Below are positions 46,361 to 58,253 of a stretch of 64,000 bases of DNA, piece by piece (position 1 is the first letter of the stretch; every line of letters starts with the position of its first letter). Below the pieces are notes generated by a model. It worked only from the letters and a program-made list of their open reading frames with translations. It ran no database searches and had not been told where the DNA came from. Position numbers and translations under genes: made by a program. This DNA comes from Oscillospiraceae bacterium (GTDB lineage: Bacteria; Bacillota; Clostridia; UBA1212; SIG427), in NCBI GenBank assembly GCA_015069135.1, contig SVJE01000004.1, positions 186,001-250,000 on the forward strand, given 5' to 3'.

Positions 46361-47050
46361 ATGAACATTAACTTAAAAACACATTTATTAGGCATGAGAA
46401 GTGCTGTGTATTACTATATTCTTGGTGTGGCAGTAGCATGGGGAGGATTTCCTTTTATGGCTATGCTAACATTGAGAATGGGGGTAACCATCGACAAAGG
46501 TCAGATTTTTTATTCAATATTTGCTACAGTTTGTTATGCAATACTGACTTATCTCGGCATGTATGATATAGGTGTTAAAGACCGTCGTCCTTATAAATGG
46601 GCCAGATATAAGGCAAAAGGTCTTGTAATGGGTCTTATGGCTTTTTTTGCTGTATATATCATAGAGGTAATACTTATTTTCATTGCAGACAGATATGCAG
46701 TGGTGCAGCATCCTGTGTTGGATATAAAGGGTGTCCACGGATATATAACCCAGGTTTTGTACATGACATTTTTCTGGATAAGCAAGATACTGAATCCGGA
46801 TGCTATTATGCCGTCTTTAAACTATTTAACAGCACTTATCCCTGCTGTTTTTGTAGCCGGATTTAATGGTTTTGCCTACTGGATGGGTTACACAGAAAAA
46901 GTGTTAATCAAAAACAAGCCAAAAGGCAGGCTTGCTCAATTCCTTTTCTACGGCCACAGAAAAAAGAAAAAAACAGGCTGGCAGGAAAAGCTTAATGAAA
47001 AATTTTATGATAAAGATAAAAAGCTAAACAGAAAGAGAGATTCAAAATGA
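46361..47050 (+). CDS. Unrecognised membrane protein
   Basis: 229 residues, not recognised. Four to five membrane segments (about 15-37, 48-68, 85-108, 128-146, 155-175) are followed by a very basic C-terminal tail (RKKKKTGWQEKL...KKLNRKRDSK) that should be cytoplasmic and could touch nucleic acid or lipid head groups. No ribosome site stands out before the ATG. It overlaps the next gene by ATGA, so the two products are probably made together in a fixed ratio. Confidence 0.6.
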   Translation: MNINLKTHLLGMRSAVYYYILGVAVAWGGFPFMAMLTLRMGVTIDKGQIFYSIFATVCYAILTYLGMYDIGVKDRRPYKWARYKAKGLVMGLMAFFAVYIIEVILIFIADRYAVVQHPVLDIKGVHGYITQVLYMTFFWISKILNPDAIMPSLNYLTALIPAVFVAGFNGFAYWMGYTEKVLIKNKPKGRLAQFLFYGHRKKKKTGWQEKLNEKFYDKDKKLNRKRDSK

Positions 47051-47937
47051 ACAGAGAAGTTGCAATAAATGCAATCAGAGATTTTAACTATTTTATAGAC
47101 ACAAAAATGGAAGAAAGAATCACTTCAGGAGAGCTTCTTTCTGACACAATGGCTGACATTCAGGAGTTTGCTAAAACAATTGAGCCTGACTGGACAGAGC
47201 AACACAAAGAAGTTTTAGAAGAAGTAAAACAGGCTTCCGATGAAGAGTTTTTAGACCTTTGTTCATACGTAATGCTTAACAATACAGGTGCTATTCCTAC
47301 ATTTATTGAAGAAGGTCTGAAAGAAAGAGGAAAGGCATCAGAAGAATTTCTGACCGGCTATCTGGAATCTGACATTTTACAGGTGGATGTAAACAGCTCC
47401 AGTCTTACAAAAGAGCAGCTGTACGACACAGATATGGTGAACTCAGCTATATATCTGGCCGGTAAAATGGAATCTTCCGCCATGTACGAGAAGCTTACAG
47501 CTTTATTCTTAAATTGTCTTTCTGCCAACGAGATGTTTCTTGAAAAAATGGTAACAGCATTGTCCTCTGAAAAGGCAATAGAGTACATAACAAAACTTCT
47601 GGAAGATGAAAGTCTTAATTCTTCCAAGAGAGCAGATGCTATGCAGATGGTATGCAACTCAGGCGTAAGAAATGATGATTTATTTAAGCTTATGAAGAAA
47701 AACTTTAAAGCGTTAAGTAAAGATCCTGCTACTGAAATTGTGGCTGCCATGCTTATGTTTGATTACGGCGATCCAAGAATTATTCCGGCTTTAAGAAAGC
47801 TTGTTATTGATAAGATTGAAGCAACTTCAGGAATAATCAAATCAGATAACACCCCTATTTATATTCTTCTTTCTATGATTCATAAAATGGGCGGCACCAC
47901 CCAGGACCTTACCGGTGGTAAAGATATTTTCAATTAA
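47047..47937 (+). CDS. Unrecognised all-helical (HEAT-like) cytoplasmic protein
   Basis: 296 residues, not recognised. No signal peptide or membrane segment; the sequence is almost entirely helical with short helix pairs, and the second half (about 150-270) has a HEAT-repeat feel (ALSSEKAIEYITKLLEDESL, KNFKALSKDPATEIVAAMLM). It is acidic, which would complement the basic tail of its ATGA-coupled membrane partner. A scaffold role is only a guess. Confidence 0.55.
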   Translation: MNREVAINAIRDFNYFIDTKMEERITSGELLSDTMADIQEFAKTIEPDWTEQHKEVLEEVKQASDEEFLDLCSYVMLNNTGAIPTFIEEGLKERGKASEEFLTGYLESDILQVDVNSSSLTKEQLYDTDMVNSAIYLAGKMESSAMYEKLTALFLNCLSANEMFLEKMVTALSSEKAIEYITKLLEDESLNSSKRADAMQMVCNSGVRNDDLFKLMKKNFKALSKDPATEIVAAMLMFDYGDPRIIPALRKLVIDKIEATSGIIKSDNTPIYILLSMIHKMGGTTQDLTGGKDIFN

Positions 47938-47962: not shown

Positions 47963-48008
47963 ACACTCCCTCAGGAATATGCTTTATTACGAGCTTGACA
48001 GGGGGTGT
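47963..48008 (+). promoter_or_regulatory. Hairpin that sequesters the cwlD ribosome-binding site
   Basis: ACACTCCCT (47963-47971) pairs with AGGGGGTGT (48000-48008), which contains the only good Shine-Dalgarno of cwlD (GGGGGTG). A T run follows at 48010-48015, so the same hairpin could also end transcription of the upstream pair. Confidence 0.45.
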
Positions 48009-48013
48009 ATTTT

Positions 48014-48781
48014 TTGATTCTGCTTGTAAAAAGAAATAATCTGATATTCTGCGCACTGGTACTTACACTGTGCTTAACAATATTGGGAGTGAATCTTTCC
48101 TATGACAAAGATGCTTTCGAAGCCACAACAGTTTCAACCGTGCCGGTTTTAAGTACTGCCGGTAAAACAGTAGTAATTGATGCAGGTCATGGCGGGGAGG
48201 ATCCTGGGGCAGTCAGTAAGTTTAATGGGGTAAGCGAAAAGGACATAACACTGGTTATTGCCCAAAAAACCAAAGAACTACTTGAAAAAGCAGGGTATAA
48301 AGTTATTATGACAAGAACAGAAGATGTTCTTAATTATAATGATGAAAACGCATCAATGACGGCAAAACGGCGCCAGGATTTGCTTAAAAGAAAAAAGATT
48401 ATGGATGAAAGCAATGCTGATATTGTAGTAAGTATTCACCTTAACAGTTTTCCTGAAACAAAATACAGAGGTGCACAGACATTTTACACAAAAAATTCTT
48501 TGTCCGGTAAGAAGCTTGCCGGGGCTATTCAGGAATCGTTGAAAATTAATGTAGACCCTGATAATGATAGAGAGGCATTGCAGAAAAAAGAAGATATAAT
48601 AATTACAAAAGACTGTAAAGTTACAACTGTTATTGTGGAATGTGGCTTTTTATCCAATGAAACTGAGTGTGTAAAACTTGCCGAAGAGTCTTATCAGACC
48701 AAATTAGCAGAAGGAATAAAGACTGGTATTGATAAGTATTTTACCGCTATGGTGCCGGAAGCAACCGATTCGAAAAAATGA
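48014..48781 (+). CDS. cwlD: N-acetylmuramoyl-L-alanine amidase, CwlD type
   Basis: 255 residues if started at TTG 48014, six bases after GGGGGTG (a GTG at 48005 is the alternative). An N-terminal membrane helix is followed by an Amidase_3 domain (about 50-245): VVIDAGHGGEDPGAV with the first zinc His, SIHLNSFP with the second, and VIVECGFLSNETE with the catalytic Glu. CwlD acts with a deacetylase to form muramic-lactam in spore cortex, a mark of endospore formers, and pairs logically with SleB at 8158. Confidence 0.85.
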   Translation: MILLVKRNNLIFCALVLTLCLTILGVNLSYDKDAFEATTVSTVPVLSTAGKTVVIDAGHGGEDPGAVSKFNGVSEKDITLVIAQKTKELLEKAGYKVIMTRTEDVLNYNDENASMTAKRRQDLLKRKKIMDESNADIVVSIHLNSFPETKYRGAQTFYTKNSLSGKKLAGAIQESLKINVDPDNDREALQKKEDIIITKDCKVTTVIVECGFLSNETECVKLAEESYQTKLAEGIKTGIDKYFTAMVPEATDSKK

Positions 48782-48799
48782 AATTTTCAGGAAATAATG

Positions 48800-48834
48800 A
48801 GCACTTTGTCGAAAAAACGGCAAAGTGCTTTTTT
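48800..48834 (+). terminator. Intrinsic terminator after cwlD
   Basis: AGCACTTTGTCG-type arm (48800-48811) pairs with CGGCAAAGTGCT (48818-48829), then T residues. Confidence 0.88.
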
Positions 48835-48966
48835 GTGCGATGTTATGGGTAGTTTAAAGTTTTTTGTAAAATTTTTCCATGGGAAATAATCATGTTTTTG
48901 TGCAATGTTAAAAAAACTCTTGTAAAATGGCCTTCCCCAAAATAAAAAACAGGAGGTGTAAAATTT

Positions 48967-50430
48967 ATGGACGCAACCGGCAGAATAATTCAGATGGAAG
49001 ACGCAGCAGGTTTTCCGGTGGCAGTTAAGAGATGGGAGAAAAAAGACGGGGAAAAGGCATCACGGGAAGCCGAAATGCTGAAACTTATGGAAGGAAGAGG
49101 TGTTCCCGGGTTTGTCAGGTCTTTTTCAGACGCAGAGTATGTTTATGTGGTTACGGAATGGATTAGTGGTGTCACTCTGGAGAAATTCATTGAGGATTCA
49201 GGAGGTTTTTTAAGAAGTAGTCAGGCCTTAGAGATAGGCAGTCGTTTGTTGGATGTTCTGAAAAAATTACATAATCATAACAAAGGTCCTTTCGTTTATA
49301 CGGATTTAAAACCGGCTAATGTAATGATAAAAGAGGGTGGTGTATATCTTCTTGATTTCGAAAGTGTGGCTTTGGCAGGAGAAGACAGAAAAGACTCCGA
49401 TGGAAGAACTGTGGTGATGGGAACAAGACCTTTTACCGCACCGGAAATTTTTACGGGAAATGTTCAGCCGGAAGCAGATTATTATTCATTGGGAGCACTT
49501 ATGTACTATATGCTCACAGGTAGGAATTGGTGTGGGGATGCAGAATTATTAGAGGCTCATTCTATAGGAGCCGGTGTGCTTGAACTTTTAAATCCTGATC
49601 CGTCTAAAAGAAAAAAGGGGCTTCGAATATTTCCTTCGGAGCATTTTAAGAAACTTATCAGGCAAAAAACTTTAATGGTTGCAGAATCTTCTTTGGTAAT
49701 CGACAGATCAAAAGTGGTTTTTGTTAATGACAACCCACGGTTTGCCGTGGAAATGGCATACGAGGCGGCTACACACATGAATCTTAAAGTAGGAATCTTT
49801 TCTGTACTTGAAGCGGACAACCCATCTTTGGTTGATAGATTGGAAATTAAGGTTAAAGAGTGGCCGGTGTGCGCTTTAGGATCTTCCGAAGAAGAATATG
49901 AGTTTCTGGAAAATTCAAAAACAGATTCATGGCTGGAAAAAGGATACTTGGTAAGAGGTGCAGGGTCTAAAAATTTATATGTATCTCTTATTCAACCAAG
50001 AGAAACATTAAGGCATACTGAAATGAGACAGTGGGGAGTTTTTTGTCAGTGGGCCAGAAATAATTTTGATTTGACAGTACTTATAGGAAGGGCAGGCAGG
50101 GATTATATAGCGTATTTTGCCGATAAAATAATTATGGCAATTCATCCGGACTTGTGGGAGATTCATAGTGCAGAAGGGGACGCAGGTGATCTTGCGGATT
50201 GTGTTTATTACAACTCTGTAAGATATGTTGCATGGGAATACAAAGAAGGAGTAAGCCTGACACCGGAAAGGTTTTCCGATAAAGTGGGTCAGGACAGATA
50301 CATAGGAGAAATATATTATGACAGTAATCGGTTAATTACGGAAAACAGAAGGCAGTTGCCATACTGTTTTAGTATGCCGGATGTTATAAAACAACAGTAC
50401 GAGAGAATAATACGAAAAATTTTTTATTAA
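48967..50430 (+). CDS. Serine/threonine kinase domain fused to a ParA/CpaE-like degenerate domain
   Basis: 487 residues. Residues about 10-235 form a Hanks-type kinase: VAVKRW (Lys21), SREAEM (helix-C Glu), YTDLKPANVM (catalytic Asp113, Lys115, Asn118), LLDFES in place of DFG (metal Asp130 kept) and TAPE. The first strand and Gly loop are short. The region about 244-487 reads like the MinD/ParA/CpaE fold: VVFVNDNPRFAVEMAYEAA at the P-loop position without a Walker Lys, KVGIFSVLEADNPSLVDRL, and FDLTVLIGRAGRD. There is no membrane helix or PASTA repeat. It lies 15 bases before a thioester adhesin, so control of that adhesin or of surface-organelle placement is a reasonable inference. Confidence 0.75.
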   Translation: MDATGRIIQMEDAAGFPVAVKRWEKKDGEKASREAEMLKLMEGRGVPGFVRSFSDAEYVYVVTEWISGVTLEKFIEDSGGFLRSSQALEIGSRLLDVLKKLHNHNKGPFVYTDLKPANVMIKEGGVYLLDFESVALAGEDRKDSDGRTVVMGTRPFTAPEIFTGNVQPEADYYSLGALMYYMLTGRNWCGDAELLEAHSIGAGVLELLNPDPSKRKKGLRIFPSEHFKKLIRQKTLMVAESSLVIDRSKVVFVNDNPRFAVEMAYEAATHMNLKVGIFSVLEADNPSLVDRLEIKVKEWPVCALGSSEEEYEFLENSKTDSWLEKGYLVRGAGSKNLYVSLIQPRETLRHTEMRQWGVFCQWARNNFDLTVLIGRAGRDYIAYFADKIIMAIHPDLWEIHSAEGDAGDLADCVYYNSVRYVAWEYKEGVSLTPERFSDKVGQDRYIGEIYYDSNRLITENRRQLPYCFSMPDVIKQQYERIIRKIFY

Positions 50431-50445: not shown

Positions 50446-53400
50446 ATGTTGAAAAAATATAAGTTAAGAAATTTGATTAAGGTTGCAGTTTCCTTTGCAA
50501 CAGCTGTTGTTTTAGTATTTACTCTTGTTGTTCCGGGTTCAGCAGTAGAGGAAAGAGTGGGAAGATTCGGAGATGTAAATGGTTCAGACGGACTATTTAA
50601 ATGGAAAGAAGACGGAAAAGAAAAGACTCTCAATTATTTTTACGTGGGCGATTCTGTACTGGCCAATCAGGCTTACTGTATAGACCATGCAACTTCTCTT
50701 AATGACGGTACGATACGAACCGGTACGGAATGTGATTTAGGGTACGGATCGGACTTTTGGAAGCGTTTCTCGGAAGAAACCAAAAAAGGTATTATGTATG
50801 CATTGCTTTACGGATACAATGGTAAAGATAACAAGGTTCCGGATCAACTTAAAGCCAGAAACCTTAATATCAGCACAATGGATTATTTAGCTGCAACACA
50901 GTTTTTGGTATGGGAGTATTCTATGGGCTATAGAAAAAATGCCACGACATTAAATAATTCTTTATTCTATAACTGTATAAAAGGCCGTAGAGCAGAAGTG
51001 GCATATAACTACATCCTGGAACAGATAGCGGCTCATGAAGTAAAGGCATCTTTTTTAAGTAAAGCAAATGATAAAGCTTCTGCACAATCTTATGTAATGA
51101 AATGGAATCAGTCAGCAGGCCGGTATGAAACCGTGGTTACTGATGAAAACGGTAACTCTTTTGACTGGACAATTATTGGTTCCGGAAGTGTTAAAGTTTC
51201 AAGGCAGGGAAATAAATATACATTTTATTCTACTGAAAAAATAAGTAACTATACAGTTGAAATAAAAAAATATATTCCGACTGGGGTTATAGCTTCCGGA
51301 AACACATTTAAACTTGTGGTATTTGACGGTAACGGACAGTCGCTTACTCGAGGCAAGTGGGATCCTATGAAGTATTACATGAATTTTTCCACAGAAGAAG
51401 ATGGCAGGATTGTTGTAAATAAAACTTCTGAAGATGGTATTGTAGAAAATGTAAAATTTGTTTTGAGTGGGAAAGGGTTGGCCTCTCCAATTTCTAAAGC
51501 TACAGATGCTACAGGAAAAACGGAGTTTTCGGGACTCAAACCGGGAAAATATACAGTTACTGAGGTGGTAAATGAAGAAAAATATGTGGTACCGGCCCCT
51601 GTGACAATAAATGTGGAAGCCGGAGTGACAAAAGAAATTAGTTTCCATAATGAATTAGTAGAATATAGTTTTAAGATTAAGAAACATGTTATGGAAACTG
51701 AATATAGTGAAGGCTGTGCCACTTTTACTTTTAAGATAACGGGAGACAACCTTCCTGAGCCAATATTTGCCACAACTCATTGGATACAATCTATAAAGAA
51801 TAATACTGTCCAGGTGGGAGAGGTTACTGTAAGAATACCGGGACCGGGACATTATACTGTTGAAGAGGTTGATACCGGGGAAAAATTTACTTCGGAAATT
51901 TTAAATACGGATGTTATCCAAATAACACAAGAAGGTGACAATGGTTCTTTGTGGTTCAGGAATACACCTAAAAAGGGAATCTTGAAGATAAAGAAAACTT
52001 CTGAAGACGGAGTTGTTGAAGGCGTCACTTTTACAATTACCGGGGAAAATCTTTCTTCGCCTTTAAGCCTTGTTACGGATGAAAATGGTGAAATATCAAA
52101 AGATTTATTAATTGGCAAATATACCATAACAGAAACCGCTGCTGATGAATATGTTTCACAAGGAGAGAGAATAGTTGATATTGTTTTCAATGAAACTGTA
52201 GAGTTGAGCTTTGCCAATATACTTAAGAGGGGCGACCTTAAAATAATTAAGACATCAGATAATGGTAAGGTTTCCGGCAAGAGATTTATTGTAACAGCTA
52301 CAAATGGTGGTGAGATTTTGCTTTCAGACGGAAGCCTTGTTGAAAAAATAGAACTTATTACTGATGATAATGGCGTTGCTATGGCAGAAAAATTACCTGT
52401 GGGTGATTATACTGTTTCTGAGACAGACAATTCTGTTGCTTATGAAGATTTTGTTTCAGCTACTGCTAAACTTACGGATGAGGGCTCTGTAGTTACTTTA
52501 TATATGCACAATTCTTTAAAAATGGGTAGTGTGGTATTACATAAAACCTCTGAGGATGGTATTCTTGGCGGACATAGATTTCTCATATACGGCAAAGTGT
52601 TTAATCCTGAAGGTTTTTCTGAATTGGATGTAATAGATTTCAGTGCTGAAGCAGTAACCAACGAAGAAGGATATGCATCATTTAAGGTTCCTGTGAATAT
52701 AGTGTCGAAAAACGGTAAAGTTTATAAAGCTGATGAAAGTGGCTTTACTATAGTAGAAGTTGGTAATGAAAAATATGAAAAGCTTTCACCTATAACGGGA
52801 ATTTTTGTAGAGCAGGATATGGTAGCAAATGGTGGTCCTATAAACATAAATAATATATTAAAGAAAGGTTCTGTGAAAGTTCTGAAGGAAAGCGAAGATG
52901 GAGTTGTTGAAGGTGTTTCTTTTAAATTATCCGGTAGGACTTTCTATGGTAAAGAGGTCTCTTTGTCAGGCATAACAGATAAAAATGGGGAACTGGTATT
53001 TACCGGTTTAGCGCCATCTGATGAAAATGGTTACACAATAACCGAAACAGACACACCGGATTATTATGAGCCTCAAGAATCTGTTTCTGTTAAAATACAA
53101 GTGGATAAAGTGGTCAATGTTGAGTTTAATAATATACTGAAAAAAGGAACTGTTAAAGTGATTAAATCGTCAGAAGATGGCTTTGTTGAAGGCTTTACTT
53201 TTGTGCTGCACGGAACATCTGCTGCAGGAGAAAATGTTATAATGAGATCAACTACCAATTCGGAAGGTACTGCTGTATTTGAAAATGTGCCTATATCTGA
53301 TGGATATGGATATATTTTGGAAGAAGAAAAAGTCCCAGTAAAATATGTGGTTCCGGATAAGGAGTCGGTTGTTGTAAATTGGAATGAAGAAACGTCGGTT

Positions 53401-53952
53401 AAAGTTTTAAATACGCTTAAGAGAATAATATCTCCGGTTGTTAAGACTGATGAAACCGGAAATGTTCTTGAAGGTGCAGGTCTGGCAGTATACACACATG
53501 AAAATGAACTGGTATTTGCAGGTCTCACTGATGAAAAAGGTATGCTTGCAGGACTTGAGCTTGTAGTTGGTAAAAAATATTTTGTAAGAGAATTTCTAGC
53601 TCCTGTAGGATATGTTCTTGATGAAACTTTAAGAGAGTTTGTTGTGCTGGATGATGGCACTGTGGAAGGAGACTATAGTTTTACAAACCAACTAATTCCA
53701 ACGCCTGAACCAACTCCTGTCCCGGTGGAAGCACCTACTGAAGAACCGGCAGTCCCAACGCCTATACCAACAAAAATTCCTGAAATTACGGAACGCCCTG
53801 CTTTAACAGCTCCACCTACAGAAGTTCCACCTGAGACAGGGGATAATAATAACTTTAAACCCTACGTTGTAATAGCATGTGTTGCCATTGTGGCAGGTGT
53901 TGTAATAATGGTAATTCTGAAGAAACATGCTGAAGAGGAAAATGTGGCATAA
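50446..53952 (+). CDS. Thioester-domain surface adhesin with Cna-B repeats and sortase signal
   Basis: 1168 residues. Signal peptide (about 1-34); thioester (TQXA) domain (about 38-210) with AYCID (Cys78) and AATQFLVWEY (Gln152), the pair expected to form an internal Cys-Gln thioester; then a linker domain. Eight Cna-B/SpaA-like beta repeats (about 322-1085) mostly begin KxxKTSEDG and end in FxN, the Lys/Asn pair of isopeptide bonds, with TxTE as the catalytic Glu. A Pro/Thr stalk precedes PPETG, a membrane helix and a charged tail. It should be covalently anchored by a sortase, which is not in this window. It may bind host or plant surfaces covalently through the thioester. Confidence 0.9.
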   Translation: MLKKYKLRNLIKVAVSFATAVVLVFTLVVPGSAVEERVGRFGDVNGSDGLFKWKEDGKEKTLNYFYVGDSVLANQAYCIDHATSLNDGTIRTGTECDLGYGSDFWKRFSEETKKGIMYALLYGYNGKDNKVPDQLKARNLNISTMDYLAATQFLVWEYSMGYRKNATTLNNSLFYNCIKGRRAEVAYNYILEQIAAHEVKASFLSKANDKASAQSYVMKWNQSAGRYETVVTDENGNSFDWTIIGSGSVKVSRQGNKYTFYSTEKISNYTVEIKKYIPTGVIASGNTFKLVVFDGNGQSLTRGKWDPMKYYMNFSTEEDGRIVVNKTSEDGIVENVKFVLSGKGLASPISKATDATGKTEFSGLKPGKYTVTEVVNEEKYVVPAPVTINVEAGVTKEISFHNELVEYSFKIKKHVMETEYSEGCATFTFKITGDNLPEPIFATTHWIQSIKNNTVQVGEVTVRIPGPGHYTVEEVDTGEKFTSEILNTDVIQITQEGDNGSLWFRNTPKKGILKIKKTSEDGVVEGVTFTITGENLSSPLSLVTDENGEISKDLLIGKYTITETAADEYVSQGERIVDIVFNETVELSFANILKRGDLKIIKTSDNGKVSGKRFIVTATNGGEILLSDGSLVEKIELITDDNGVAMAEKLPVGDYTVSETDNSVAYEDFVSATAKLTDEGSVVTLYMHNSLKMGSVVLHKTSEDGILGGHRFLIYGKVFNPEGFSELDVIDFSAEAVTNEEGYASFKVPVNIVSKNGKVYKADESGFTIVEVGNEKYEKLSPITGIFVEQDMVANGGPININNILKKGSVKVLKESEDGVVEGVSFKLSGRTFYGKEVSLSGITDKNGELVFTGLAPSDENGYTITETDTPDYYEPQESVSVKIQVDKVVNVEFNNILKKGTVKVIKSSEDGFVEGFTFVLHGTSAAGENVIMRSTTNSEGTAVFENVPISDGYGYILEEEKVPVKYVVPDKESVVVNWNEETSVKVLNTLKRIISPVVKTDETGNVLEGAGLAVYTHENELVFAGLTDEKGMLAGLELVVGKKYFVREFLAPVGYVLDETLREFVVLDDGTVEGDYSFTNQLIPTPEPTPVPVEAPTEEPAVPTPIPTKIPEITERPALTAPPTEVPPETGDNNNFKPYVVIACVAIVAGVVIMVILKKHAEEENVA

Positions 53953-55381: not shown

Positions 55382-57913
55382 TTAGGCTGTTTCAATTGAA
55401 TTATCTGCTTTAAGGTTCAATTTGTCAACAGCATTTTCACGCATTTTGTATTTTAATATTTTACCGGCAGCATTCATAGGGAAGCTGTCTACAAAATCAA
55501 CATAGCGTGGCACTTTATGCTTTGCCATATGATCAAGTACAAACTGCTTGATTTCTTCTTCCGAAGAAGTTTCCCCTTCTTTAAGAATTACGCAGGCCAT
55601 AATTTCTTCGCCGTACTGTTTGTCTGGTACACCTATTACCTGTACGTCTTTTACCTTTGGATGAGTATATATAAAGTCCTCGATTTCCTTAGGATAGATA
55701 TTTTCGCCACCACGGATAATCATATCTTTAATGCGGCCTGTGATTTTGTAATATCCGTTAGCATCACGACGAGCCAGGTCTCCTGTGTGGAGCCAACCAT
55801 TTTCGTCAATAGTAGCAGCTGTAGCTTCAGGCATTTTGTAGTATCCTTTCATAATGTTGTATCCCTTGGCGACAAACTCACCATCAACACCATCCGGTAA
55901 TTCGTCGCCGGTTTCAGGATCTACTATCTTACACTCAACACCATACATAGCAGCTCCTACTGTGTTTACACGGGTTTCAATAGAGTCTGTTGTTTTACTC
56001 ATTGTACATCCGGGGGATGCTTCTGTCTGTCCGTAGGTGATACAAATCTCAGGCATGTTCATTTTTTCAATTACTTCACGCATTACCTTGATAGGACATG
56101 GACTTCCTGCCATAATACCAGTACGCATGTGACTGAAGTCAGTTTTAGGGAAGTCTTCGTGGCCAAGCATTGCGATAAACATGGTAGGTACACCATGGAA
56201 ACAAGTAATCTGCTCCTGATTGATACAAGCAAGACCTTTCTTAGGCGAGAATGCAGGAATCGGACACATTGTTACACCGTGAGTCATAGAAGCTGTCATG
56301 GCCAATACCATGCCGAAACAGTGGAACATAGGTACCTGAATCATCATTTTATCTGCTGTGGAAAGATCCATGCAGTCGCCAATAGCTTTACCGTTATTTA
56401 CAACGTTATAGTGTGTAAGCATTACGCCTTTAGGGAAGCCTGTGGTACCTGAGGTGTACTGCATATTACACACATCGTCTTTATTAATTGCAGCGGCTCT
56501 TAATTGCACTTCTGATAAAGGTACTCTTTCAGATAATGCCATAGCTTCATCCCATGTGTAACATCCCTTCTGGGAAGATTCACAGGTAATGATGTTACGA
56601 AGGAAAGGTAATTTCTTCAAATAAAGATGCTGACCCTTTTCAGCTGTTTCCAATTCAGGGCACAGTTCTTTGATAATTCCTATATAATCAGAATCTTTAT
56701 AGCCGTCCACCATAACCAGAGTATGGGTATCAGACTGACGAAGTAAATATTCTACCTCGTGTATTTTGTAAGCTGTATTTACTGTAACCAATACAGCACC
56801 GATTTTTGTGGTTGCCCAGAAAGTCAAATACCACTGAGGAACATTAGTAGCCCAGATGGCAACGTGGTCACCTGGCTTAACACCCATGGCAATAAGTGAA
56901 CGGGCAAATGTATCAACTTCATCTCTGAATTCTTTGTAAGTTCTTGTGTAGTCCATAGTTGTATAACGGAATGCATATTGGTCAGGGAACTCCTCAACCA
57001 TACGATCCAACACCTGTGGAAAAGTCAGGTCAATAAGATGTTCTTTAGGCCATACATACTTACCTGTTTTACGGTTATTGTCCTGAAGTCTGCCGTTGTT
57101 ATCGTCAGTTCCCACATACTCTGACATGTAGTTAGCATAGTGTGGGAATACAATACCTGCATCACTTAACTCTCTGTTATATGCACGAACCCATTCCAAA
57201 GACAGGTAACCTTCGTAGTTAATAGAACGAAGGGCACGGATAACTGCAGGGATAGGAAGATCTCCCTCACCCATAAGCTTGTATACAACTTTGTCCCCAT
57301 CCATGATAGAGTCTTTTGTATGTACATGTTTAATATATGCACCTAAATTCTGCAATGTGGTTTCAGGAGACTCCCCCATAAAACGGTAAGGATGATGAAT
57401 ATCCCACAAAGCACCGATGTTATCGCTTGGGATACTGTTTAACAGATTACGCAAACGATTTGTATCTGCATACACACCATTGGTTTCCACCAACAATGTA
57501 ACATTCTTTTTTTCTGCATAAGAAATTAAGCTGTTAAGCACATCAATAACAACCTGATCGTTAACTTCACCATCAGGAGCAGCATGTTCGTCTCCTAAAA
57601 TTCTTATATATGGAGTACCCAGCTTGTTAGCCAGGTCAATATATTCTTTAAGCTCTGCAATATTTTCCTCTGCCTTTTCAGGATATTTAAGAGCGCAACC
57701 TGAAGAAAGACATGGGATTTCCAAATGTCTATTTCTTAAATGTTCAACAGTCTTGTCAATGTTCTCAGGACAGAAAGGTTTTGCTTTTACAGAGAAAATG
57801 TCGTCACCCAGACCTCTCATTTCGATTCCTCTGAAGCCAAAGTCCTTGGCCATAGAATAGATGTCGGTCCAACCAAAGTTAGGACAACCTAATGTAGAAA
57901 ATGCTAATTTCAT
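55382..57913 (-). CDS. TIM-barrel (xylose-isomerase-like) / acyl-CoA synthetase fusion protein
   Basis: 843 residues from ATG 57913, with AAAGGAGAG nine bases upstream; the open frame runs back to 57997 but through the T-box terminator. Residues about 1-270 are an AP_endonuc_2/xylose-isomerase-like barrel with its metal set in place (LVETNG, WDIHHP, HVHTKD, LSLEW). Residues about 300-843 are a complete acyl-CoA synthetase of the ANL superfamily: QYTSGTTGFPKGVMLTHYN (ATP loop), YGQTEASPG, GWLHTGDLARRD, GRIKDMIIRGGENIYPKE hinge and AAGKILKYKMRE with the catalytic Lys. The substrate is unknown. A leucine-type T-box precedes it, so supply of a leucine-related acyl-CoA (for example from isovalerate) is a hypothesis. 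The fusion of these two folds is unusual to me. Confidence 0.85.
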   Translation of the reverse strand: MKLAFSTLGCPNFGWTDIYSMAKDFGFRGIEMRGLGDDIFSVKAKPFCPENIDKTVEHLRNRHLEIPCLSSGCALKYPEKAEENIAELKEYIDLANKLGTPYIRILGDEHAAPDGEVNDQVVIDVLNSLISYAEKKNVTLLVETNGVYADTNRLRNLLNSIPSDNIGALWDIHHPYRFMGESPETTLQNLGAYIKHVHTKDSIMDGDKVVYKLMGEGDLPIPAVIRALRSINYEGYLSLEWVRAYNRELSDAGIVFPHYANYMSEYVGTDDNNGRLQDNNRKTGKYVWPKEHLIDLTFPQVLDRMVEEFPDQYAFRYTTMDYTRTYKEFRDEVDTFARSLIAMGVKPGDHVAIWATNVPQWYLTFWATTKIGAVLVTVNTAYKIHEVEYLLRQSDTHTLVMVDGYKDSDYIGIIKELCPELETAEKGQHLYLKKLPFLRNIITCESSQKGCYTWDEAMALSERVPLSEVQLRAAAINKDDVCNMQYTSGTTGFPKGVMLTHYNVVNNGKAIGDCMDLSTADKMMIQVPMFHCFGMVLAMTASMTHGVTMCPIPAFSPKKGLACINQEQITCFHGVPTMFIAMLGHEDFPKTDFSHMRTGIMAGSPCPIKVMREVIEKMNMPEICITYGQTEASPGCTMSKTTDSIETRVNTVGAAMYGVECKIVDPETGDELPDGVDGEFVAKGYNIMKGYYKMPEATAATIDENGWLHTGDLARRDANGYYKITGRIKDMIIRGGENIYPKEIEDFIYTHPKVKDVQVIGVPDKQYGEEIMACVILKEGETSSEEEIKQFVLDHMAKHKVPRYVDFVDSFPMNAAGKILKYKMRENAVDKLNLKADNSIETA

Positions 57914-57960
57914 AACTAAAAATCTCTCCTTTTCTTGTAAAATATCTCGGAGTTTTTGGT

Positions 57961-58253
57961 AAAATAAAAATACACCCTCATCTCCGGCTTTATGCAAGAG
58001 ACGAAAGTGTTAACTTCCGCGGTACCACTCTTATTGGTAAACAATACCCACTTTACGGCATCGATATAATGCCTTTCCCTTGATAACGGTGGAATTCTCC
58101 GTCCGCCATTACTTATGATATAACGTTCTTGGCGGAAGCTCCGGGGTGAGTATCGGATTATTTCCATCACTGTCTTGCACCAACCGACAGCTCTCTGCAA
58201 GGTGGTAAAATAATTCTTGGTCCCCATCAAAGCTTTTACATTTTTTAGTTATG
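57961..58253 (-). promoter_or_regulatory. T-box riboswitch leader, probable leucine (CUC) specifier
   Basis: Read on the minus strand. Stem I base AAGCT/AGCTT and GGGG/CCCC; specifier loop before ACCCCGGAGC with CTC at 58150-58148; helix ATTATTT/AAATAAT; AGAGAG bulge; distal helix CTGTC/GACAG with loop GGTTGGTGCAA. The T-box core AAGAGTGGTACCGCGG lies at 58032-58017. The antiterminator pairs AAGAG with CTCTT (58000-57996). The competing terminator pairs ACACTTTCGTCTC (58010-57998) with GAGATGAGGGTGT (57984-57972), then a T run. CUC is a common leucine specifier; ACU (Thr) is the weaker alternative register. Confidence 0.9.

Follow-up and report, generated by a model that had tools for sequence, protein, structure and literature searches.

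The closest described relatives of the protein analyzed here are the TadZ/CpaE proteins of Tad pilus systems, exemplified by Eubacterium rectale TadZ and Caulobacter CpaE, which carry an atypical receiver as N-terminal signaling domain and a C-terminal ATPase-fold domain of the ParA/MinD type. TadZ proteins retain a deviant P-loop that binds ATP (PMC6668835, PMC13170226). In Caulobacter, six CpaE dimers have been modelled as a ring around the CpaF motor, with the receiver domains thought to link the dimers (PMC13170226), and Gram-positive minimal Tad systems are said to comprise TadA, TadB, TadC, Flp1 and TadZ (PMC11300603). A kinase paired with an FHA protein at an envelope machine is known from T7SSc-f and T6SS, which include the DUF6382-FHA proteins TseJ and TsfJ; in one T6SS the FHA protein has been described as a reader of phosphothreonine, the same role has been proposed in some T7SS, and the T7SS protein EssB is an earlier example of a pseudokinase within a surface machine (PMC11217815). 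Our search of the literature, which covered open-licence papers, yielded no account of a kinase-TadZ fusion.

The locus described here lies in a stretch of 64,000 nucleotides (the window) and encodes a 487-aa protein in which a Hanks-type kinase stands where TadZ and CpaE have their receiver domain. In contrast to the genes of TadZ and CpaE, the window gene is located outside any Tad operon and adjoins a gene for a thioester (TED) surface adhesin. The features of the locus are as follows.

46361..47050, + strand: conserved upstream membrane protein (synteny)
47047..47937, + strand: conserved upstream protein, weakly HEAT-like (Pfam, synteny)
48005..48781, + strand: CwlD-like N-acetylmuramoyl-L-alanine amidase, conserved upstream (Amidase_3, 8.9e-46; synteny)
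48799..48830, + strand: intrinsic terminator-like hairpin of 13 pairs, between the amidase and kinase genes
48967..50430, + strand: kinase/TadZ-like fusion gene (487 aa; start codon ATG at 48967, stop codon ending at 50430)
48967..49641, + strand: Hanks-type kinase domain, residues about 1-225 (Pkinase, 1.8e-26; invariant catalytic residues)
49699..50427, + strand: TadZ/CpaE-like (ParA/MinD fold) domain without Walker A, residues 245-487 (AlphaFold2, Foldseek, alignment)
50446..53952, + strand: TED surface adhesin with SpaA repeats and a PPETG anchor motif (PF08341, 2.3e-11; PF17802, 1.2e-50)

An earlier note, made from the letters of the window, had proposed that the C-terminal half of the protein follows the MinD/ParA strand pattern but has no P-loop, and it named the Walker lysine as missing. 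Pfam gave no match in this half. The full-length model (pLDDT 82.9) contains a disordered linker at residues 226-246 and returned only kinases among the Foldseek matches listed, and we therefore modelled the C-terminal domain alone. AlphaFold2 run on a 32-sequence alignment of residues 245-487 gave a model with a pLDDT of 88.3 and a pTM of 0.88, for which the best Foldseek match was MinD (4v02; TM 0.71-0.72, E 7e-10), followed by ParA, FleN, McdA and Soj. An independent profile search of PDB sequences identified the ParA-like PF-32 protein 3k9g (E=1.7e-4). The predicted fold is thus of the ParA/MinD type, as the earlier note had expected, and a chance resemblance of this half to ParA is excluded by the predicted structure together with the family-wide conservation. 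The loss extends beyond the Walker lysine: the alignment contains no P-loop in the window protein or in any other aligned member. In members of the window's order, a short loop with an almost invariant NxxFxxE stands where ParA proteins have Walker A, and the same position reads VWDNAEFGCELAY or similar in most relatives outside the order. A local mutation or a sequencing error is excluded as the source of the loss because every aligned member lacks the P-loop. As judged from the alignment, the C-terminal domain has lost the entire P-loop rather than the lysine alone and is probably a pseudo-ATPase. The moment of its C-terminal helix, which bears on a possible polar or membrane localization, is 0.61, compared with 0.33 in shuffles, 6% of which were as high.

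The N-terminal half is matched by Pkinase at residues 14-192 (Pfam, E=1.8e-26). Lys21, Glu34, Asp113, Asn118 and Asp130 are invariant across 22 aligned family members, as are Glu132, Thr148, the Pro-Glu of APE (Glu160), Asp171 and Arg215; the VAIK lysine, alpha-C glutamate, HRD aspartate, asparagine, DFG aspartate and APE that define a Hanks-type kinase are all present and are invariant or nearly so in the window's order. The catalytic residues listed in the earlier note (Lys21, Asp113, Asn118 and Asp130, with DFE) were found at the positions it gave. The window kinase shares these catalytic residues (Lys, Glu, Asp, Asn, Asp and APE) with Hanks-type kinases such as PknB and PrkC, but it carries a fused ParA-fold domain in place of PASTA repeats or a transmembrane segment, and it has lost the glycine loop, the HRD arginine and the DFG glycine. 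Residues 130-132 read DFE, and all 24 members of the order that were compared have glutamate in place of the DFG glycine. The position of the HRD arginine is occupied by Thr112, which makes the window protein a non-RD kinase, and this arginine is absent in members of the order. In the sequences of the order's members as displayed, the segment ahead of the VAIK lysine has no glycine-rich loop (GxGxxG). In the window kinase beta-1 is missing as well; beta-1 and most of the glycine loop would fall 5' of the start codon. A mis-called start that conceals the loop is excluded by a strong RBS (CAGGAGGTG, at about 48950-48958) just 5' of the ATG and by the length of the open frame, which is 494 aa from stop to stop and so adds just 7 open codons upstream. 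The absence of beta-1 and of most of the glycine loop from the N-lobe of the window kinase is thus genuine. As a separate observation, the same genome holds an ordinary pair of PrpC phosphatase and PASTA kinase genes (G000 contig C7, locus L048, 5449-8518), and therefore has at least two Hanks kinases.

A kinase without its glycine loop, HRD arginine and DFG glycine could be inactive, and this bears on how the protein works. In relatives outside the order the glycine loop and DFG are mostly canonical; the DFG glycine is kept in 18 of 23 and the HRD arginine in 14 of 23. Since the outside copies mostly keep these motifs, the kinase was probably joined to the TadZ-like domain before it changed in the window's order. 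The order-wide losses, set against the mostly canonical kinases outside, the complete absence of beta-1 in the window copy and the precedent of EssB (PMC11217815) are what one would expect if both halves had lost catalysis and the protein were a structural adaptor of a machine, binding ATP as a ligand if at all. We regard this as possible though rather doubtful, because none of the 24 members compared departs from Lys21, Glu34, Asp113, Asn118, Asp130 or the Thr148 of the activation segment, residues that a pure scaffold could do without. Moreover, some kinases without a glycine-rich loop are active.

Class-wide searches together with a kinase profile located the kinase-TadZ fusion in about 18 genomes of other orders and a kinase-free version in about eight. 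A profile built from the order's fusions matched the TadZ-position proteins of ordinary Tad loci (L119 and L121-L123) at 1e-24 to 1e-27, and in three of these (L119, L122 and L123) the gene that follows encodes TadA (T2SSE). Similarly, in L125-L127 the fusion itself is followed by TadA (T2SSE, 4.8e-28, 4.8e-26 and 1.7e-24), with T2SSF proteins also downstream in L125, and the kinase-free relatives outside the order hold the same slot before TadA. Pfam detected no receiver domain in the N-termini of these kinase-free proteins, for which the label 'receiver-type' was given by eye. An alignment-based search for related loci returned 15 loci with titled records, and the same search with the window protein as single query gave no match. 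Among titled records, MAGs of Clostridiaceae and Hungateiclostridiaceae have the fusion, and Lutispora thermophila has the kinase-free version. An alignment query of a phylum-wide sample gave 0 matches in 398 genomes; this query missed the window's own genome too, so absence is not implied.

These results bring the protein closer to TadZ/CpaE than the comparison 'in principle' of the earlier note (profile E about 1e-25 to TadZ-position proteins of other orders, with most of the outside relatives kinase-fused), while the P-loop of TadZ is absent here. The two share the ParA/MinD fold, an architecture of an N-terminal signaling domain followed by an ATPase-fold domain and, among relatives of the window protein, a place in Tad loci immediately ahead of TadA or CpaB; they differ in the Walker A motif, which is deviant in TadZ and absent in the window protein. 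The C-terminal fold and the sequence kinship with TadZ-position proteins were both found. A Tad-locus position was found in nine relatives within the order and in other orders. The window protein itself has no P-loop, no receiver domain and no Tad locus at its site, and for these reasons we do not file it as TadZ; it is best called a TadZ-like kinase.

Two observations made among the outside loci concern further ParA-like genes. Plasmid pHD02 of Paenibacillus (L187, 5788-12573) carries an unannotated kinase that continues in frame into a ParA-like stretch (GVSSGSGATHTA); the frame breaks beyond this stretch, and SAF and T2SS-type ATPase genes lie alongside. The kinase/ParA-like fusion may reach the Bacilli. 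In L118 (689-1564), L120 (8150-8971) and L131 (7451-8821), a second ParA-like protein in which the Walker lysine is Gln (GMGQT, GLGQT) adjoins the TadZ-like gene, which is kinase-fused in L118 and L120. This Gln-type protein could pair with the loop-less TadZ-like one.

Within the window's order the C-terminal domain is present in 26 of 29 genomes by profile search (23 of 31 by single-sequence search), and every copy that we read is kinase-fused. We read the neighborhoods of 24 loci, window included, and 18 of them have surface-structure genes downstream, divided equally between a Tad-type pilus operon and a TED adhesin. In nine loci the fusion is followed directly by a divergent Tad set, whole or partial, with CpaB-, CpaF/TadA-, TadB-, TadC- and pilin-like proteins. 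The ATPase of these sets (~560 aa) matches solved CpaF at 5e-8 and TIGR03819 TadA at 4e-8 by profile, the CpaB/RcpC-like protein matches Pfam RcpC at only 0.003, and the TadB- and TadC-like membrane proteins, which have no T2SSF match, were assigned by size, position and sequence pattern; small pilin-like proteins also belong to these sets. In the other nine loci, including the window, a TED adhesin lies downstream, directly or after one small gene. Neither Tad nor TED follows the fusion in five loci, and one ends at a contig edge. The association of the homologues with surface-structure genes, whose absence would have told against the role suggested by the earlier note, is thus borne out, although the TED adhesin is not the family's usual partner. 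The TED neighbor is an alternative to the pilus operon and probably its replacement. At L030 (2439-5769), and in the same gene order at L029, L032 and L039, SipW-dependent/TasA-type (camelysin family) secreted proteins are encoded behind the TED gene, which suggests a biofilm fiber locus adjoining the kinase-TadZ gene.

The adhesin in the window begins 15 nt past the stop of the kinase gene, directly downstream as first described (PF08341, 2.3e-11). It has six SpaA repeats (Pfam), its thioester motifs hold Cys78 and Gln152, and PPETG is found at residue 1128, near the C-terminus. From the hairpin at 48799-48830 and the 15-nt gap, the fusion and TED genes likely form their own transcription unit, a two-gene operon, in which case adhesin and regulator would probably be produced together. 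An alternative is that the kinase serves the envelope or sporulation in general, with the upstream amidase, HEAT-like and membrane proteins as its real partners and the downstream genes as passengers. This trio consists of a membrane protein (no Pfam match in the window copy), a protein of ~290 aa and the CwlD-like amidase, which in the window scores 217.8 bits against TIGR02883, slightly below the cut-off of 221.55. Many loci from several families of the order keep the trio with the same arrangement and orientation, among them that of G006, where neither Tad nor TED follows the fusion. We consider this reading very unlikely: the 13-pair terminator separates amidase from kinase, genus g11 lacks the trio and keeps the fusion with TED, and outside the order the trio was not seen while Tad genes are constant neighbors.

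It is also conceivable that the protein left the Tad system when the pilus operon was lost and now regulates or localizes only the export of the TED adhesin. TED follows the fusion in nine genomes, the TED-linked members form two separate clades of the fusion tree (on which the TED label needs two changes), the fusion and TED genes overlap in G001, and the operon layout at the window leaves out the upstream amidase. Furthermore, the divergent TadA occurs in nine of 29 genomes and TED in 12 of 29, with no genome carrying both (hypergeometric 0.0024, genomes treated as independent of kinship). Nevertheless, every TED-lineage genome searched retains the minimal Tad ATPase gene, and the alignment shows the ParA-fold domain to be equally conserved in Tad and TED lineages. 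To our knowledge, TED adhesins elsewhere require no cytoplasmic partner of this kind. We therefore judge a complete departure from the Tad system to be unlikely.

The genome of the window contains one Tad locus, on a different contig from the kinase/TadZ-like gene, and no Tad gene adjoins the window gene.

G000 contig C11, L117, 4509-8375, - strand: minimal Tad locus (TadA, TadB, TadC, Flp1-like), whose last gene encodes a DUF6382-FHA protein

The locus was recognized by matches to TadA (9e-54), a T2SSF pair, Flp1_like (5e-17, a 70-aa pilin) and FHA (1e-15), and it has neither TadZ nor CpaB. When the genome was searched with AAA_31, the matches were limited to two CpsD-type kinases, Mrp, FtsY and Ffh. 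A TadZ could have escaped this search, because the genome is 92.7% complete and AAA_31 may not recognize a very divergent TadZ. Since the Gram-positive minimal set includes TadZ and this locus lacks it, the leading candidate for the missing subunit is the window protein. Of the 25 FHA-positive genomes of the order, 24 have an FHA gene at 2.4-3.1 kb from TadA; G006 has the fusion and no FHA match. In G005, about 7 kb separates the fusion from the minimal TadA, and both are encoded on the same strand. Counting against a TadZ subunit, the Tad locus of the window's genome is on another contig, and G002, G007 and G020, which lack the fusion at E<=1e-5, keep a T2SSE-type Tad ATPase.

Overall, we favor by a little over an even chance the reading that the protein is a TadZ/CpaE-type accessory subunit of a Tad machine in which a kinase has taken the place of the receiver and the ParA half is a pseudo-ATPase, so that the machine would be controlled by phosphorylation. 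The ParA-fold half would dock on the Tad motor or platform at the membrane and fix the kinase there, setting kinases around the motor in place of the CpaE receiver domains, and the kinase would phosphorylate a protein of the Tad machine. In the window's genome the likeliest reader of such a mark would be the DUF6382-FHA protein of the separate tadA-tadB-tadC-flp locus. The pilus operon of sister lineages is absent at the window and the TED adhesin occupies its slot; the kinase-TadZ protein and the adhesin are therefore probably made together as parts of one attachment program, although the positioning role raised by the earlier note, phosphorylation and any action on the TED protein are things that we infer. 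Kinase activity and the TED link are the weakest points of the accessory-subunit reading. More broadly, the data suggest that some Gram-positives control Tad pili, or an adhesin in their place, by protein phosphorylation. It is a tentative, and less probable, extension that kinase-TadZ proteins are widespread undescribed Tad regulators of Clostridia, in which a kinase ring borne on pseudo-ATPases around the motor writes phosphothreonine and the FHA protein of the Tad locus reads it as a pilus switch, with some lineages re-using the regulator for a thioester adhesin instead of a second pilus.

The exchange of receiver for kinase provides a direct test of the Tad assembly signal in Gram-positives and of the purpose of the TadZ receiver, and the order offers a locus type in which one conserved regulator is followed by an entire pilus operon in some lineages and by a single adhesin in others. 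If the accessory-subunit reading is true, Tad pili would join T6SS and T7SS as envelope machines that pair a kinase with an FHA protein. The likeness to T7SSc-f and T6SS lies in a kinase and an FHA protein tied to an envelope machine; the difference is that the kinase described here is joined to a TadZ-type domain and has its link with Tad pili instead of an EssC-type secretion system. On a plasmid of Agathobacter rectalis (L186, 7035-10985), consecutive genes encode a PP2C phosphatase, a Ser/Thr kinase and an FHA protein, with a WXG100 type VII secretion gene nearby. Elsewhere in the window, an 871-aa ORF (55382-57997, - strand) joins an AP_endonuc_2 xylose-isomerase-like TIM barrel to an AMP-binding acyl-CoA synthetase, an odd pairing.
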